Assembly (NCBI RefSeq): GCF_004118375.1
Contig: NZ_SDHX01000001.1
Coordinates: forward strand, 2,731,693-2,795,692
Reading direction: 5' to 3'
DNA length: 64,000 bases
Origin: Oleiharenicola lentus
GTDB lineage: Bacteria; Verrucomicrobiota; Verrucomicrobiia; Opitutales; Opitutaceae
The position numbers and the translations under genes are program-made. Shown one piece after another: positions 35,057 to 63,969 of the stretch. Below the pieces are notes generated by a model, which worked only from the letters and a program-made list of their open reading frames with translations, searched no databases and was not told where the DNA came from. Every line of letters starts with the position of its first letter. Within the stretch, counting starts at the first letter, position 1.

Positions 35057-35062
35057 GGGATT

Positions 35063-35185
35063 TATGAATTACGACTTACGAATTACGATTGTGACACGCT
35101 CGCGAATTCACGCTCCGCCTCATGACAATTGTTCGCTCCCGATTCGGGGAAATCGTAAACCGTCCATCGTAAATCTGAAATCATA
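35063..35185. repeat. Word-repeat inverted element between permease genes (aattacga words)
   Basis: The left arm (35063-35091) is gaattacga, cttacga and aattacgat in a row. The right arm (about 35148-35182) is aaatcgtaaac, catcgtaaat and ctgaaatcat. The right arm is close to the reverse complement of the left (aatcgtaattcgtaagtcgtaa). The centre (35092-35147) is ordinary GC-rich sequence. It ends 3 bases before the next start codon. Confidence 0.7.
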
Positions 35186-35974: not shown

Positions 35975-35988
35975 ACGAACAGGTGACA

Positions 35989-36073
35989 AGTATCAGGGAT
36001 CAAGTAACAAGAGGGTTATCCATGACCGTGGCTTCCGCTTCACCTGATACCTGGAACCTGATACTTGTTACTT
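35989..36073. repeat. Word-repeat inverted element upstream of rnc (aagtatcagg words)
   Basis: The left arm (35989-36011) reads caggtgacaagtatcaggg then atcaagtaacaag. The right arm (36040-36073) reads cacctgatacc, tggaacctgatac, ttgttacttcac. The right arm is largely the reverse complement of the left. The element ends 3 bases before the rnc start codon. The words differ from those at 35063 but the layout is the same. Confidence 0.75.
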
Positions 36074-36076
36074 CAC

Positions 36077-36787
36077 ATGGGCTCTTCTGATCAAACTGTC
36101 GCCGCCCTGCAGAAGACCATCGGCTACAGCTTTCGCAATGAGTCCCTCCTGATTGAGGCCCTCACCCACCCCTCTTTTCTCCAGGACAACGCGCAGGCGG
36201 GGGCTCACAACCAGCGGCTCGAGTTCCTCGGCGACTCGGTGCTCCAGTTTATCCTCACCGACGCACTCTACCGCACATTCCCCGAGGACCGCGAGGGCGT
36301 GATGAGCCGCCGCCGGGCCGTGTTGTCGAAGGGCGGATTCCTCACACAGATGGCGCGGGACCTCGGCCTCGACGCCAGTCTGCGCCTCAACAAGAGCGAA
36401 GAAGACTCCGGTGGACGCAAACGCGCCTCGATCCTTGAGGATGCCTTCGAGGCGCTCGTCGGCGCAGTCTATCTCGACAGTGACCTGGCCACCACCCAGC
36501 GGCTGGTGCTCGCGTGGTATGGCCCGCTCGCCGAACGACTGGCCGTATCCGAGGACGCCGAGAACCCGAAGGGCCGGCTGCAGGAGCTGATCCAGCCGGA
36601 ACACGGCAACAACGCCCTGAATTACCTCGTCAGTGCCACCACCGGCCCGCGCCACGCCCAGGTTTACGAGGTCGAGGTCTTCCTGAAGGACCGCAAGATC
36701 GGCAGTGGCACCGGTTCCTCCAAGAAAGCCGCCGAGGAAGCCGCCGCCCGGGTCGCGCTCGTAACGTTGCGCACGACATCCCAGTAG
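36077..36787 (+). CDS. rnc: Ribonuclease III
   Basis: The 236-residue product cuts double-stranded RNA, including ribosomal RNA precursors. The catalytic signature RLEFLGDSVL (47-56) is complete, with the second acidic site EDAFEALVGAVYLD near residue 120. The C-terminal double-stranded-RNA-binding domain (QELIQPEHGNNALNYLV ... GSGTGSSKKAAEEAAARVAL) is present. ATG 36077 gives a family-length protein; an earlier in-frame start at 36065 lies in the word-repeat arm. It is followed after 87 bases of a REP-like element by mfd. Confidence 0.96.
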   Translation: MGSSDQTVAALQKTIGYSFRNESLLIEALTHPSFLQDNAQAGAHNQRLEFLGDSVLQFILTDALYRTFPEDREGVMSRRRAVLSKGGFLTQMARDLGLDASLRLNKSEEDSGGRKRASILEDAFEALVGAVYLDSDLATTQRLVLAWYGPLAERLAVSEDAENPKGRLQELIQPEHGNNALNYLVSATTGPRHAQVYEVEVFLKDRKIGSGTGSSKKAAEEAAARVALVTLRTTSQ

Positions 36788-36797
36788 CCCGAAGCTT

Positions 36798-36879
36798 GTC
36801 ATCCTGAGCGCAGCGAAGGATCCAAGGGACTCGGCGCCCGTGATTATCGTGCTGGATTCTTCCCTGCGTTCAGAATGAC
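36798..36879. repeat. REP-like inverted repeat (gtcatcctgagcg family) before mfd
   Basis: The left arm is 36798-36824 (gtcatcctgagcgcagcg, then aaggatcca). The right arm is 36853-36879 (tggattcttccctgcg, then ttcagaatgac). They pair at about 22 of 27 positions. The possible ATG start of mfd (36875) is inside the right arm. Relatives are at 53537 and, in part, at 47542. Confidence 0.8.
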
Positions 36880-39800
36880 ATGGAGCGCTCGTTTGGTGAC
36901 AGGTCAGCCTACAGCTCCACGCCACAAGCTCACCGGAATTTGTCCGGCAGCGCACCCCCATGCCCTCGCGGAACTGGTCCGCACACACCCTGCCCCGGTC
37001 TGGCTGGTGATCCACGAGGAGGCCGCGCGCACCGATTCACTGGCCGAGGACATCGCGCTGTTTTGCCAAGCCGGCGGCGGACCCGTTCTCGACGTCCTCG
37101 CCTTCCCCGAAGCCCAGACCGACAACCGCGAGCTGCGCGAGGCCTTCAACGCCGCCAGCGACCGTCTCGCCGTGCTGAGCAGGCTGCGCGCCCGCGATAG
37201 ATCTCAAAACCCGGATCCGAAATCCGCGCCCCAGGATCCGAGACCCCAAAACCAGCTGCTGGTTTTGACCACCCCCGCCGCGTTGCTCCAGCCCGTGCCG
37301 CCCCCGGAGGACTTCTCTTCGCGCGAAACGAACCTGCATCGCGGTGAAGCCCGTCCGTTTCAGGCCCTCCTCGATCTGCTCCGCGCCTACGATTACGACA
37401 GCGAAGCGGTCTGCGAGGCCCCCGGGCAATACGCGGTGCGCGGTGGCATCGTGGACGTTTACCCGATCACGGCGCACCAACCCTACCGGCTGGATTTCTT
37501 CGGCGACACGCTGGAAGAGATCAAGGCGCTCGACCCGGTCACGCAGCGCTCGGGCGAAGCAGTCGAGCGCATCACCCTGACCGCCGCCGCCCGCGTCCAC
37601 ACCGGCGGGGCGCAGGCCAGCCTGCTCGACTACCTCGGTTCCGCCGCGCACGCCGCCATCATCGAGCCCAAGGCCGTCGAGGAGCTGTTTGATTTGGGCG
37701 GCCGGGCGGACACGCCACCGCCCGCCGATGGAGCGGCAGCGTTGAAGGGTCTTACCGTCCTGTCTGGAACGTGCGCCCGCCTCTTCGGGCTCAGCGATCT
37801 CGACCTGGCCAGCGAACTCTTCGACGGCGCTGGAGAGGAGGAGACTTGGGACACCGAATCACTCGCCCATCACCGCTCCTACCCCGAGGAGCGCCAGCTC
37901 GCCCATGAACGCCTGCAAGCCGAGGACGAAGCCCGCCGCGAGTTTCTCGAGAAAGTGCTGGCCTGGCAGCAGGCGGGCTACGCCGTGGACTTCGTGGTGA
38001 CCAAGGAAGGCGAAGAACAACGCGTGCGCGAGCTGTTGGAGGAGGACAAAGAACTGCGCGCCCTGAAGCCGCGTTTTCTGCGCGGCGCGCTGAGTGAAGG
38101 TTTTCGCGTGACCGCGCGGCCGAGCGGGAGCTCGGCGATCCAGGCCAAGGTCTCCCCGCCGAAGGAGGGCCAAGCTCCGGCGCGGCCGGGTTCGAAAGGC
38201 CTCGTCGTCGTCTCCGAAACCGAGATCTTCGGCCGCAAGCGCCAGCGTCGCTCCCTAACGAAGCGCGCCATCGCCGCGCAGTCGGCCGTGGACCAGCTGC
38301 TCGACTTTTCCGAGCTGGTCGAAGGCGACTTCGTCGTCCACCTCCAGCACGGCATCGCCCAGTTCCGCGGCCTGACCAAGCTCGAAAGCGCCGACGGCGT
38401 GCGCGAGGTCATTTCGCTGGAGTTCGACGACCACGTGACCCTGCACGTGCCGTTGCAAGAGTCGCACCTCATCAGCCGCTACGTCGGGCTGTCCAAGGCC
38501 AAGCCCCAGCTCGGGCGCGTCGGCTCGGGTCGTTGGGAAAAGGCGCGGCAGGCCGCCGAGCGCGCCACCCTCGACCTCGCCGCGGAACTGCTCGCGATCC
38601 AGGCCAAACGCGAAGCGCAGCCGGGCCACGCCTTCGCCGAGGACAACGTCTGGCAGCGCGAGTTCGAGGCCGCCTTCCCCTTCACCGAGACGCCCGACCA
38701 GATGAAGGCCATCGTGGACGTGAAGGCCGACATGGAGCGCACGCGTCCGATGGACCGGCTCGTGTGCGGCGACGTGGGCTTCGGCAAGACCGAGGTGGCG
38801 ATCCGCGCCGCGTTCAAGGCCGTCCTGGGCGGCCGGCAGGTCGCCGTGCTCGTGCCGACGACCGTGCTCGCGCAGCAGCATTTGAACAGTTTCCGCGAGC
38901 GCATGGCCGGCTACCCGATCGCGATCGAGATGCTCAGCCGCTTCCGCACACGCAAGGAGCAGGAGGGCATCCTCGCCGCGCTCGCCGCGGGCAAGATCGA
39001 TGTGGTGGTCGGCACGCACCGGCTCGTGCAGGACGACGTGAAGTTCAAGGACCTCGGTCTCGTGATCGTGGACGAGGAGCAGCGCTTCGGCGTGAAGCAC
39101 AAGGAGGTTTTCAAGCGTTGGCGCGCCCATGTGGACATGCTCGCGATGAGCGCCACGCCCATTCCACGCACGCTTTATCTGGCGCTCACCGGTGCGCGGG
39201 ACCTCAGCACGATCGAAACCGCGCCGACCAACCGCCTGCCCATCCAGACCATCGTCAAAAGCTACGACGAGAAACTCGTCGTCGAAGCCATCCAGCACGA
39301 GCTGCGGCGCGGCGGCCAGGTGTTTTACCTGCACAACCGGGTGCAGACCATCGACCTCGTCGCCGCGCGTCTCGGGCAGCTTTTGCCCGGTGTCACCGTG
39401 GGCGTGGGCCACGGCAAGATGGGCTCCGACGGCCTCGAGCGCGTGATGACCGAGTTCGTCGCCGGGCGTTACCAAGTGCTCGTCTGCACGACGATCATCG
39501 AGAGCGGCCTCGACATCCCGAACTGCAACACGCTGATCATCGAGGGCGCCGACCGTTTCGGGTTGTCGCAGCTCTACCAGCTCCGCGGGCGCGTCGGTCG
39601 TTTCAAGCACCAGGCCTACGCCTATCTGCTGTTGCACCGCCACGCCCGGGTGTTGGACCTCGCCCGCCAGCGCCTGACGGCCATCCGCCAGCACAACCAG
39701 CTCGGCGCGGGCTTCCGCATCGCCATGCGCGACCTCGAGCTGCGCGGCGCGGGCAACCTGCTCGGCGCGGAACAGAGCGGCCATATCGTCGGCGTGGGCT

Positions 39801-47529: not shown

Positions 47530-47640
47530 CGTTCGGTGCGAGTCATTCTGAGCGAAGCGAATATTCCAGGGGCATGCACGTCATTTTCGGGATCCTGCGC
47601 CCTCTGCGCGGGCGCAGGAAGACGCGACGACAGCGTCGCG
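47530..47640. repeat. Hairpins and REP half-element between lysC and thrC
   Basis: The region holds gtcattctgagcgaagcga (47542-47560), related to the left arm of the REP-like elements at 36798 and 53537. It also has two GC hairpins: cctgcgccc/gggcgcagg near 47594-47620 and cgcgacg/cgtcgcg near 47623-47640. Read on the minus strand they follow the lysC stop directly. No T-run follows, so termination is doubtful, but they could stabilise or attenuate the transcript. Confidence 0.6.
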
Positions 47641-61182: not shown

Positions 61183-61785
61183 ATGATCTATGTTCTTCCC
61201 GGTATGGGTGCCGACCGGCGTATGTATCCAGCACCGTGGGACACTCTGCCTGATTGCTCCTTCCTTAACTGGCCCGACTACTCGGGCGAACAATCATTGA
61301 GCGAAATAGCGGAGAGCGTCGTTCGCCGTCATTCGATCGAAGAGGGTGCATGGCTGGCCGGTTCTTCACTCGGTGGCATGGTAGCGACCGAAATAGCGAT
61401 GATGGTGCCGCTCAGGGGAATTATACTGATTGGCAGCGCTCGGTCACCAGACGAAGTCAGCACTTTGCTGCGCGCAGTTTCGCCGTTGATCGACCTCGCC
61501 CCGTTGCCATTCATTCAGCAACTCGCAGGCAAAGCTCCGATGGATTTGATGCAGATGTTCAAAGACAGCGACCCCGACTTCATTCGTGCTATGTGTCGGG
61601 CCATCGTGAACTGGAAAGGCATCGAAAAATACGTGCCAATCCACCGCATCCATGGCCGGCACGACTTGGTCATACCACTGCCAAAGCATGTCGAGCATGT
61701 GATCGACGGTGGCCACTTGATTGCCATGACCCACGCCGCGGATTGCGTGACTGCTGTGAAGAACCTCCTCAGCTCAAATCCCTGA
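61183..61785 (+). CDS. Small alpha/beta hydrolase
   Basis: The 200-residue product has the alpha/beta hydrolase elements: a start MIYVLPGMGAD, nucleophile Ser62 in GSSLGG, HGRHDLVIP with the acid Asp, and GGHLIAM with the catalytic His. There is no leader, so it is cytoplasmic. The fold is compact, without a lid domain, and the substrate is unknown. It follows the GDYXXLXY gene by 2 bases. The last 17 bases overlap the 3' end of the convergent dgt gene (61769-61785), so the two stops cross. Composition is less GC-rich than in the flanking genes. Confidence 0.85.
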   Translation: MIYVLPGMGADRRMYPAPWDTLPDCSFLNWPDYSGEQSLSEIAESVVRRHSIEEGAWLAGSSLGGMVATEIAMMVPLRGIILIGSARSPDEVSTLLRAVSPLIDLAPLPFIQQLAGKAPMDLMQMFKDSDPDFIRAMCRAIVNWKGIEKYVPIHRIHGRHDLVIPLPKHVEHVIDGGHLIAMTHAADCVTAVKNLLSSNP

Positions 61786-63040
61786 AACTCCCAAACTCCG
61801 GATCAAACAGCCGCCGGTAGGTCCGCACGATCATGCCGTCGGTCTGGCCGGCGATGAAGTCGCAGATGCGGCGAGCTTTGCCGTCCTGGGTCTTCTCCGC
61901 CTCGATCAGGCGGCTGACGTTGCCGGGAAGGATGCGGATGATGCGCTCGTTGCGCTGGACGTAGTTTTCCCAGATGGCGTTGAAGAGGGCGTTGATGATG
62001 ACGCGCGCCTTGTGCTCCAGCTGCTCGAGCTGCGGGCTCTCGAAGATGATGTCGTTGGCCATCTTCTTGAAGAACTCCGCCTCGCCGCGCGCCGTCTCCT
62101 CAATGATGAGGTCGTATTTGTAGCGATTCGTCTTCTCGGCCATGAAGTTGTCGCGCGTCTTCAGGCGACAGGCCTGGATGAAGTGGCCGATCTTCTTGGA
62201 AAAGGTGTTTTCGAGCCGGTCCTTGCGTACGGCGTCAAAGAACGAGTCAAGGTGCTTCTGTTCGATCGCGCCGATGGCCTCGCCGGCGGCCCAGCGCTCG
62301 ACGCGCTCGACCGTGAGGAAGCCCGCACGCACGCCGTCCACGATGTCGTTGAGTGAGTAAGCCGCGTCGTCGGCCCAGTCCATGATCTGGCACTCGACGC
62401 TCTTGAAGTCATTCAGCGCCTCGCCGCGCATGAGCGGTCCGGGGATGCGGGCGCCGGCGAAGACCCAGTCGCGGATGCCGCCCTGGCCGTCGTAGATGAA
62501 GTGGTTGAGCGGCGGGGTGGCGAACTCGGTGTAGAGCTTCTTGTATTTCAGCACGCCGTCGAGGAGCGCGCGCGTGGGCTGCATGCCCTTCACGCCGCTC
62601 TCGTTCTGGTAGATGGTCTCGCAGAGGAGGTGCAGCGTCTGCGCGTTGCCCTCGAAGCCGCCGCGGCGCTTCATCAGCTCCTGCAGCGTGCGCTCGCCGC
62701 TGTGGCCGAACGGCGGATGCCCCATGTCGTGCGACAGGCAGCTCGCCTCGACGAGGTCGGCGTCGATGTAGAAGTCATCCGACAACGGGTCGCCGCGGCT
62801 GAGCAGGTAGCTGCAGATGGAGCGGCCGATCTGGGCGACCTCCATCGAATGCGTGAGGCGCGTGCGGTAGAAGTCGTATTCGCCGCTGAGGAACACCTGG
62901 GTCTTCGACTGGAGCTTGCGGAAGGCGTGCGCGTGGATGATGCGGTCGCGATCGATCTGGAACGGTGTGCGGTAGTCGGGCTTCCGGCTGGAGCTCCAGC
63001 ATTGGGTGTCGAACTCGTTATAGAACCGGTTTGTCGGCAT
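61769..63040 (-). CDS. dgt: Deoxyguanosinetriphosphate triphosphohydrolase-like (dNTPase)
   Basis: This 423-residue HD-domain enzyme hydrolyses dNTPs to the nucleoside and triphosphate. The HD metal ligands are His64 (RLTHSMEVAQIGR), His104-Asp105 (CLSHDMGHPPFGHSGE) and a late Asp in DWADDAAYSLND. The start reads FYNEFDTQCWSSSRKPDYRTPFQIDRDRI (the last part cited as FQIDRDRI), typical of the family, and the length is normal. It balances dNTP pools and may limit phage replication. It is convergent with the hydrolase gene (17-base overlap). Its start lies next to a large word-repeat palindrome (63107-63245), which it shares as upstream region with ogt. Confidence 0.93.
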   Translation of the reverse strand: MPTNRFYNEFDTQCWSSSRKPDYRTPFQIDRDRIIHAHAFRKLQSKTQVFLSGEYDFYRTRLTHSMEVAQIGRSICSYLLSRGDPLSDDFYIDADLVEASCLSHDMGHPPFGHSGERTLQELMKRRGGFEGNAQTLHLLCETIYQNESGVKGMQPTRALLDGVLKYKKLYTEFATPPLNHFIYDGQGGIRDWVFAGARIPGPLMRGEALNDFKSVECQIMDWADDAAYSLNDIVDGVRAGFLTVERVERWAAGEAIGAIEQKHLDSFFDAVRKDRLENTFSKKIGHFIQACRLKTRDNFMAEKTNRYKYDLIIEETARGEAEFFKKMANDIIFESPQLEQLEHKARVIINALFNAIWENYVQRNERIIRILPGNVSRLIEAEKTQDGKARRICDFIAGQTDGMIVRTYRRLFDPEFGSFRDLS

Positions 63041-63106
63041 GGCGGTGAACGCGGACGAAAACAGGCCGCCGCCGCCGAGGCGAGCGGAATGGCAGTGAGG
63101 CGGAGC

Positions 63107-63245
63107 GTGACCACGGACAACGGACCATAGACCACGGACCTGAACCCGCCCTTGCAGCCGAACCGTCCATGCCAGCCCAACGAAGTCACAATCATCCCGG
63201 TTCCGGGCCGGGTCCGTTGTCTGTAGTCAGTGGTCTGTGGTCCGT
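63107..63245. repeat. Word-repeat palindrome between dgt and ogt (accacggac words)
   Basis: Left arm 63107-63140 reads gaccacgg, acaacggacc, atagaccacggacc. Right arm 63211-63245 reads ggtccgttgtc, tgtagtcagt, ggtctgtggtccgt. The right arm is largely the reverse complement of the left (acggaccacagaccactgactacagacaacggacc). A 70-base centre lies between them. It is the clearest example of the word-repeat class in the window. Confidence 0.85.
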
Positions 63246-63317
63246 AGCACCGTCCTTGGCCGATCGGCCACCCGGCGGAGGCTTGCACGCCTGAACGCGC
63301 CCCCTAGCCTGCCGACC

Positions 63318-63842
63318 ATGCCTCACACGCTTTTCCCCACGGCCTTCGGCACCTGTGGCATTGCGTGGAACGACACCGGGCTCACGGGCTTCCAACTGCC
63401 CGAGGCAACCGAGGAACTGACCGACCAGCATATCGCCGCGAAGGACCGCCTCACCGGCGAGTCCGGCCCCACCCCCGACTGGGTGCAGGCGCTCATCACC
63501 CGCGTGCAGCAGCACCTCGACGGCAAGCTGCAGGACTTCGAGCAGGCGCGTCTCGACTGGTCCCGGGTGAGCGATTTTCAGCAGGCCGTCTATCGCCACG
63601 CGCTGGCCATCAAGCCCGGCTACAAGAAGAGCTACGGCGAGATCGCGAAGCTCATGGCCCTCGGCAACGAAGCGGCGCGCGCCGTCGGTGTGGCCCTCGC
63701 CACCAATCCCTGGCCTCTGATCGTGCCCTGTCACCGCGTGGTGTCGGCCAGCGACAAGATGACCGGCTTCTCCGCCCCCGGCGGCGTGCGCACGAAGACC
63801 CGTCTGCTCGTGCTCGAAGGCGCGGAGCTGTTGTCGGAATGA
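63318..63842 (+). CDS. ogt: Methylated-DNA--protein-cysteine methyltransferase (Ogt type)
   Basis: ATG 63318 starts a 174-residue protein; upstream in-frame sequence lies in the repeat. The active-site Cys138 is in VPCHRVV, preceded by the DNA-binding helix region FQQAVYRHALAIKPGYKKSYGEIA (cited in part) and the arginine-finger ARAVGVALATNP. It removes alkyl groups from O6-alkylguanine in one irreversible step, repairing DNA. There is no N-terminal Ada domain. It is divergent from dgt, both starts facing the shared word-repeat palindrome. Confidence 0.95.
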   Translation: MPHTLFPTAFGTCGIAWNDTGLTGFQLPEATEELTDQHIAAKDRLTGESGPTPDWVQALITRVQQHLDGKLQDFEQARLDWSRVSDFQQAVYRHALAIKPGYKKSYGEIAKLMALGNEAARAVGVALATNPWPLIVPCHRVVSASDKMTGFSAPGGVRTKTRLLVLEGAELLSE

Positions 63843-63847
63843 ATCCT

Positions 63848-63960
63848 GTCATGGCGAGGAGCGACACGACGAAGCAATCCAGCTGTTTCGACAAGCTCAA
63901 GGTCCCGAGCCTGTCGAGGGACTGGATCGCCACGGGCGGCTTTGCCGCCCTCGCGATGAC
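63848..63960. repeat. Nested REP-like palindrome after ogt
   Basis: The outer arms start gtcatggcgagg (63848) and end ccctcgcgatgac (63960). Inside is a second palindrome: ttcgacaagctc with gagcctgtcgagg (about 63887-63920). One element thus seems to sit inside another. The core gagcctgtcga also occurs at 55356 within the GH2 galactosidase gene. Confidence 0.75.
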
Positions 63961-63969
63961 AATTAAGCC

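Follow-up and report, generated by a model that had tools for sequence, protein, structure and literature searches.

The 64,000-nucleotide stretch of Oleiharenicola lentus DNA analysed here (contig NZ_SDHX01000001.1; hereafter the window) holds a long palindrome between two divergent genes, and the question it raises is what kind of element has arms built of short words and how it comes to stand in such a gap. The palindrome described in the initial annotation is real. Its inverted arms, 63109-63140 and 63211-63242, are 81% complementary over 32 aligned nt and are separated by 70 nt (63141-63210). The gap extends from 63041 to 63317. On one side lies a minus-strand gene of 423 aa (61769-63040) with relatives in Opitutae, called dgt-like after the initial annotation, and on the other a plus-strand ogt-like gene (63318-63842, frame beginning MPHTLFPTAFGT), also named from the earlier work. 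The left arm, on the plus strand, consists of four and a half heptamers (GACCACG, GACAACG, GACCATA, GACCACG and GACC) of a family written here as GACNANN, and the right arm (63211-63245, minus strand) carries the same word reversed, as judged from the arm alignment and the family pattern. The arms also match in shifted registers (63120-63139 with 63226-63245 at 90%, and 63108-63126 with 63211-63229 at 89%), which shows an internal period of 7 nt. The words had been described as 7 to 10 bases long; we found a single period of 7 instead. Folding of the plus strand is better than that of dinucleotide shuffles (z -3.5, 0 of 200 shuffles as good), as is folding of the minus strand (z -2.5, 1 of 200).

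Two companion loci in the window were said to have the same architecture with different words, and both the loci and the common architecture were confirmed. In gap A, the left arm of a TTACGAN-family element (35059-35090, plus strand) lies 2 nt past the stop of the upstream gene, and its right arm (35151-35182, minus strand) stops 3 nt short of the following start codon. In gap B, alignment of the arms placed the left arm of a CAAGNNN-family element at 35983-36009 (plus strand) and its right arm at 36045-36071 (minus strand), before the start, at 36077, of an rnc-like gene.

We then asked how far a period of 7 exceeds chance. The sample comprised the window and 40 stretches of 20 kb whose positions were fixed beforehand, 864 kb in total. 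Tracts matching themselves at lag 7 (at least 20 of 28 positions) numbered 34, against 1 in a Markov control. At the same cut, lags 4, 5, 8, 10, 11 and 13 gave 0 to 3 tracts each, and lag 14, twice seven, gave 9. Lags 6, 9, 12 and 15 gave 28, 23, 22 and 15 tracts, the counts being raised at multiples of three, as codon structure in coding sequence would produce. At a laxer cut, an inverted partner was present within 250 nt for 18 of 67 lag-7 tracts and for 0 of 25 in the Markov control. Lag-9 tracts were paired in 9 of 151 cases, eight of them in five elements of a nonamer family and one in a GC-rich stretch of another kind. A GC-rich background and nothing more might be held to produce such words, a reading to which we give next to no credence, since the Markov controls and the reversed-pattern controls given below are near zero. 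Chance is excluded as the origin of the paired period-7 arms.

The words had also been taken to be specific to each locus. Genome-wide pattern matches reject this, with 0 or 1 match in the reversed controls: each word is a family with tens of copies in the genome. The GAC family, which includes the focal element, gave 123 windows at no more than 1 mismatch, overlapping windows of one array being counted separately, and its reversed control gave 0. The CAAG, GATT and TTACGA cores were found 61, 46 and 20 times in the whole genome at no more than 2 mismatches, with 1, 0 and 1 in the reversed controls. The CAAGNNN, GATTNNN, TTACGAN and CTGANNN families have the 7-nt layout in common with GACNANN. 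Anchored unit profiles have the look of four constant bases and then three loose ones in CAAGNNN, GATTNNN and CTGANNN, and of GACNANN in the GAC family; anchoring inflates the anchor positions, and the evidence lies only in the looseness of the other three. The CAAG core is lineage-specific. At no more than 1 mismatch it occurs 25 times in the genome of the window (G000) and once in 102 other genomes drawn from the order, one congener included; the close relative G020, which lies outside that draw, has 7 copies at this cut and 18 at no more than 2 mismatches. Distant Opitutae gave 3 lag-7 tracts in 57 loci (378 kb), and 40 kb of the congener G013 gave none at the cut used. Long chains of heptamer arrays, with several words in succession in one direction, were seen in the window's own genome at L006 (C2:180187) and L008 (C2:1141846).

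We next examined where the elements lie relative to genes, with gene positions taken from a codon-usage caller rather than from annotation. By the initial annotation's own standard its observation would fail if such structures were not enriched upstream of genes, and no such lack of enrichment near genes was seen. Lag-7 tracts (at least 16 of 21 positions) are mostly intergenic, 33 of 38, in sequence that is 88% coding, and 51 of 73 arms have an outer edge no more than 20 nt from a stop or start codon, with 7 inside a gene call and 15 farther away. Among 33 pairs found by pattern in three families, tandem genes flank 27, convergent genes 5 and divergent genes 0, and 1 is inside a gene call. 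In the sampled sequence a lag-7 tract is present in 41 gaps, of which 31 are tandem, 6 divergent and 4 convergent; 17 of the 41 contain a pair (13 tandem, 2 convergent and 2 divergent, one of the latter being the focal gap). Divergent gaps are thus not the usual place for heptamer pairs, and the placement of the focal element is atypical. When the element is subtracted, 12 of the 17 sampled gaps leave no more than 40 nt of other spacer; gaps of that size hold 2.7% of element-free intergenic bases (p 8e-16) and make up 35% of element-free spacers (p 0.003). These data show that many copies fill otherwise tight stop-start junctions of tandem genes.

The anatomy of the elements was studied in 73 distinct arms of three families (80 loci reduced by position), which gave the 33 distinct paired elements. 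Left arms were found by pattern (no more than 2 mismatches) and their partners by match score, both arms of one element being counted when both matched the pattern; the score thresholds, at least 12 for the 73-arm set and at least 11 for the sampled gaps, were chosen after inspection of the data. An inverted partner lay inward of 44 of the 73 arms and outward of 1 (at equal score), direct copies numbered 1 and 2, and 29 arms had no partner at the threshold. Loops of the 33 paired elements range from 0 to 357 nt, with 28 between 8 and 111 nt. Between paralogs, arm identity is 0.69-0.90, and mean loop identity is 0.52-0.59 against 0.45-0.57 for shuffled loops (loops of 12-160 nt); for individual loop pairs, short loops among them, the highest values are 0.81, 0.92 and 0.67. 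The likeness of paralogous arms is partly a matter of construction, because arms were found by pattern and match score, and the unlikeness of the loops is free of that effect.

We also asked whether an arm fits its own partner better than the partners of other copies. Among arms more than 450 nt apart (28, 21 and 13 in the three families, of which 22, 11 and 8 elements were judged), the complementarity of the own partner stood at percentiles of 0.43, 0.31 and 0.36 relative to other copies' partners (Wilcoxon p 0.34, 0.05 and 0.20), a trend slightly in the wrong direction for a stem. Since arms match their own partners no better than partners in trans, the result argues against a selected stem, and a stem kept by compensatory change was rejected for want of covariation in cis. 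Each arm thus resembles a separate copy of the family consensus, and the pair does not look like a co-evolving stem.

Local slippage might produce arms of this kind: heptamer simple-sequence repeats would grow in unconstrained gaps, 7 being a favoured slip length, and hairpins would template the inverted pairs. Heptameric over-representation and the slippage idea are both in print (PMC4692102), and the left arm between dgt and ogt, 32 nt in G000, is one unit longer in G020 (39 nt); the chained arrays of several words at L006 and L008 also fit growth in place. Templating by hairpins, however, predicts a better match in cis than in trans, contrary to the percentiles above. Slippage likewise does not account for an identical order of heptamers at unlinked loci (AAGGATCAAGTAACAAG is found at 14 exact places), for a polarity of 44 inward to 1 outward, or for arms that abut genes. 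We regard it as possible but doubtful.

The closeness of arms to gene boundaries speaks for another reading, in which a regulatory RNA stem-loop between co-transcribed genes, acting in processing, in ribosome stalling after the stop or in insulation, is selected together with its gene pair. The preponderance of tandem gaps and the lack of divergent ones among the 33 pattern-found pairs are as this reading expects, and RNA folding is strong, with a median MFE z of -4.4 in 24 tandem elements (24 of the 33, those above 200 nt and the non-tandem ones having been dropped). A REP that lies no more than 15 nt from a stop codon can reduce translation (PMC12306157). The same 24 elements show no sense-strand preference in folding, the sense strand being the better in 9 (p 0.13), and an RNA on one strand was rejected for that reason. 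Together with the missing covariation of arms and the position of the focal copy in a divergent gap, this makes a selected RNA stem-loop unlikely, and the comparison of related genomes bears on it further.

At junction A (35057-35185) we compared 21 genomes, with words labelled by eye. The same two genes flank it in all of them, which speaks against an integron attC site, a parallel weighed by analogy only. Paired arms of five word types are present in 12 genomes, 7 are empty, and 2 (G001, G022) hold something else. The arms are of the TTACGAN family in G000, of GATT in G020, G009, G011, G015 and G023, of GAATTAA in G003 and G012, of a looser TTCTC word of six or seven bases in G007, G017 and G019, and of a nonamer in G024. 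The right array of G009 and G015 runs into the start codon (GAAAATGAAC). Empty junctions read TGA-CCC-ATG or TGA-CCCC-ATG in G004, G010, G013 and G018, and measure 16 nt in G006, G008 and G014. Words differ between the sister pairs G000/G020 (support 1.0), G012/G007 (0.993) and G011/G017 (0.999), the deeper branches of the tree of relatives being weakly supported. Some of the words are alike (GATT, GAWTTAC, GAATTAA, GAGAAN), so that a word may have drifted locally.

For junction B, before rnc, 20 of the 21 genomes were examined, again with words labelled by eye. It is empty, with 4-5 nt, in G015, G019, G013, G018, G007, G006, G008, G014 and G001. CAAG arms occupy it in G000 and G011, CCAAA/TTTGGC words in G020, G003, G004, G012 and G017, and a single recognisable CCAAA/TTTGGC arm in G009 and G024. 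An unrelated inverted element of TGTCATTCTGA type is found in G010, and one is nested between the arms in G012. The 53-nt spacer of G022 (L150) carries a lone heptamer-like array, AAAATGC AAAATGG ATAATGT AGAATG, up to the start. The sisters G013 and G004 differ, one empty and the other filled (support 0.999). Both junctions are most simply explained by repeated gain where genes lie close together; a precise loss that restores a neat short spacer is possible and less likely. A stem-loop selected with its gene pair is hard to reconcile with the same junction being empty or differently worded in congeners.

Conservation of the arms was measured in five orthologous pairs of CAAG elements from G000 and G020. 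Identical positions numbered 296 of 318 in arms and 73 of 112 in loops (p 1e-11). G020 copies had been found by the core pattern, so that left arms are ascertained; right arms alone gave 143 of 157 (p 3e-7), the right arm also having matched the pattern at 2 of the 5 loci. The five were used out of seven ortholog pairs, the others being a single arm in coding sequence and a locus with another word in G020, and 1 partial ortholog was left out as well. At the locus with the other word, G020 has a different array and, by eye, a different C-terminus of the gene. The single arm lies within open coding sequence in both species (L230, C1:892115 in the window's own genome, and L316 in G020). Conserved CAAG arms are a further point in favour of the RNA stem-loop.

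Short GC hairpins often abut CAAG arms (L249, L241, L254, L246, L229, L238, L239), and in several the hairpin loop contains the stop or start codon. When all 33 elements are taken together, stems of at least 6 bp were present in 13 of 66 element flanks and in 7 of 330 control stretches (p 8e-7). In the orthologs L244 and L315 both flanking stems are retained, with one loop base changed in each. These hairpins may be a second recognition part.

The gap between dgt and ogt was compared in the same relative, as had been proposed, and it shows conserved flanks and a changed loop. The dgt-side flank (63041-63108), which may hold the 5' signals of dgt, is identical to G020 in 57 of 68 aligned columns, and the ogt-side flank (63246-63317) in 63 of 73; the loop is unconserved (48 of 118). 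GAC arms are present in G020 with the word retained, the order of units altered and the loop replaced. Their identity, 28 of 39 and 28 of 44 columns, is below that of the flanks, unlike that of the CAAG ortholog arms.

The palindrome had been said to sit where both divergent promoters should be. The gap is indeed divergent, but the element stands in the middle of it, with 68 nt separating it from dgt and 72-75 nt from ogt, and in G020 the flanks expected to carry the promoters are conserved and the loop is not. A search of 62900-63450 gave no sigma-70-like site, and a promoter reading was rejected on that ground. An intrinsic terminator was rejected because no T-run follows the stem of the arms; the same interval holds two weak terminator-like hits against 0.3 expected, one at the border of loop and right arm and one in the dgt-side flank. 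A known RNA family was rejected as well, Rfam at gathering score giving one tRNA only in the whole window. Most likely, the focal element is a passenger between two conserved promoter-side flanks.

REPINs are inverted pairs, and a REPIN/RAYT system of the usual kind would produce two inverted arms with a variable loop, dispersed, intergenic and lineage-specific, as here. Matches to Y1_Tnp occur in the genome of the window and in 24 others of 38 searched. They are absent from the small congeners G002, G006, G008, G014 and G019, and of these G006, G008 and G014 have neither junction A nor junction B filled, but the absence is confounded by genomes that are small and partly incomplete, and G019 has 3 lag-7 tracts in 27 kb despite having no Y1_Tnp match. 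None of the four Y1_Tnp (RAYT-type) loci in the window's own genome adjoins a heptamer pair in the 3.5-4 kb examined at each, so that a RAYT neighbourhood was rejected; one of the four has a lone lag-7 tract with no partner above noise. The likeness to REPs and REPINs as short extragenic repeats, some near stop codons, includes the share of REPs that lies within 15-20 nt past the stop (PMC12306157). The arm of a REPIN is a tagged short hairpin (PMC3733652), whereas the heptamer elements have arms of tandem heptamers and no tagged hairpin. A REPIN/RAYT system of the usual kind is therefore very unlikely.

MITEs and foldback transposons are dispersed and non-coding with inverted terminal arms, those of foldback elements being built of short repeats. 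The heptamer elements are like them in their inverted terminal arms, dispersal and lack of coding capacity, and differ from MITEs in that internal sequence is not shared between copies, mean loop identity being near that of shuffled loops. A measure of target-site duplication came to 3.67 nt, slightly above the comparison value of 3.34 (sd 0.16), with no clear duplication. We found no autonomous partner in a search limited to about 1.5 kb around orphan arms. The paired-heptamer repeats behave like REPINs or MITEs yet do not qualify as either.

We tentatively favour, at a little short of even confidence, the reading that the focal palindrome is one copy of non-autonomous, mobile-like dispersed repeats with paired heptamer arms. 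Such an element would consist of two arms, each an array of degenerate heptamers with about four fixed and three variable bases, set head to head around a free loop. An enzyme or complex supplied in trans would recognise, in each of the two arms, the fixed bases that recur at 7-nt intervals, and would help copies to appear at new junctions. RAYT enzymes are thought to act likewise for REPINs. Under such recognition arms would keep close to their family's consensus and alter in steps of a whole 7-nt unit, and loops would drift or take other insertions; we observed the contrast between arms and loops in one family, and its cause is what we infer. Dispersal within the lineage, fixed polarity, freedom of the loop, conserved arms in the orthologs of one family, lack of covariation in cis, preference for junctions and replacement of words are all seen directly. 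Jumping of whole units should yield common loops in recent copies, and the unshared loops count against our preferred reading.

Convergent heptamer pairs are already known from Xanthomonas, so the Opitutaceae set is a variant of them, and a named relative exists where the initial annotation knew of no named repeat class. In Rehm et al. 2015 (PMC4692102), arrays of GGGAATC, or (GGGANTN)n, are read as quadruplex formers, and convergent pairs of one word number 70 in X. campestris and 75 in X. axonopodis. The Opitutaceae elements agree in the tandem 7-nt unit, in the few units per array and in two nearby arrays being convergent and mostly intergenic (33 of 38 tracts here), and the unit GGGANTN resembles our profiles of four steady and three loose bases (PMC4692102). 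They differ from the one word described there, a G-quadruplex former, in that one genome here has many words, most without G-tracts, that one word takes the place of another between sister species, and that some junctions are empty. The CAAGNNN, GATTNNN and CTGANNN profiles have no quadruplex-capable G-tracts and the focal arms no GGG; some other GAC arrays carry GGGAC units. TAACTGA heptamer repeats of Beggiatoaceae, Cyanobacteria and Bacteroidetes, described in MacGregor 2015 (PMC4679880), are similarly intergenic arrays, most of them few nt upstream of a start codon, but are direct arrays of one word, with one inverted case in 170 sets. The STRR heptamers of cyanobacteria, with three words in Calothrix, are like our elements in having tandem heptamers of several words in a single genome. 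Further heptamer words are known among cyanobacterial STRRs; we know of neither inverted pairing nor junction filling for them.

A search of the open PMC literature turned up no description of paired heptamers with many words, and none of comparable repeats in Opitutaceae. The one-word version is known in Xanthomonas; what looks new is the version with many words and the turnover it shows at the same gaps. The genus is a natural experiment, in which a single layout comes in many words and an orthologous junction may be vacant, occupied or reoccupied by a different word; the value of the finding lies in these comparisons, which put direct constraints on any mechanism. The layout does not need quadruplex potential, arms rather than loops are conserved in one family, and the arms lack stem covariation. 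Heptamer repeats shift the spacing of tandem genes by about 100 nt. A broader proposal, speculative and improbable as it stands, is a class of mobile DNA with nothing constant but its grammar, in which a fixed tetranucleotide would recur at 7-nt steps, the two arms would face inward, the word would be free, and insertion would be aimed at tight stop-start junctions. Word families would compete for junctions, the heptamers of Xanthomonas, Nostoc and Beggiatoaceae would be other branches, and the quadruplex would be incidental.

Two further inverted structures were observed. A second class of inverted element, with TGTCATTCTGAGCG..AGCGAAGAATCC arms, lies in gaps at 36797-36880, about 47541-47640 and 63847-63962, the last, after ogt, being a TGTCATGGCGAGGAGCG variant; in relatives this class replaces heptamer elements or nests in them. 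The period-9 family (CACGAAATA / CACACGAAA) has a like plan of inverted arms at several loci (L009 2150-2220, L015 6726-6808, L019 11413-11563, L027 16917-17063 and L046 19294-19488).
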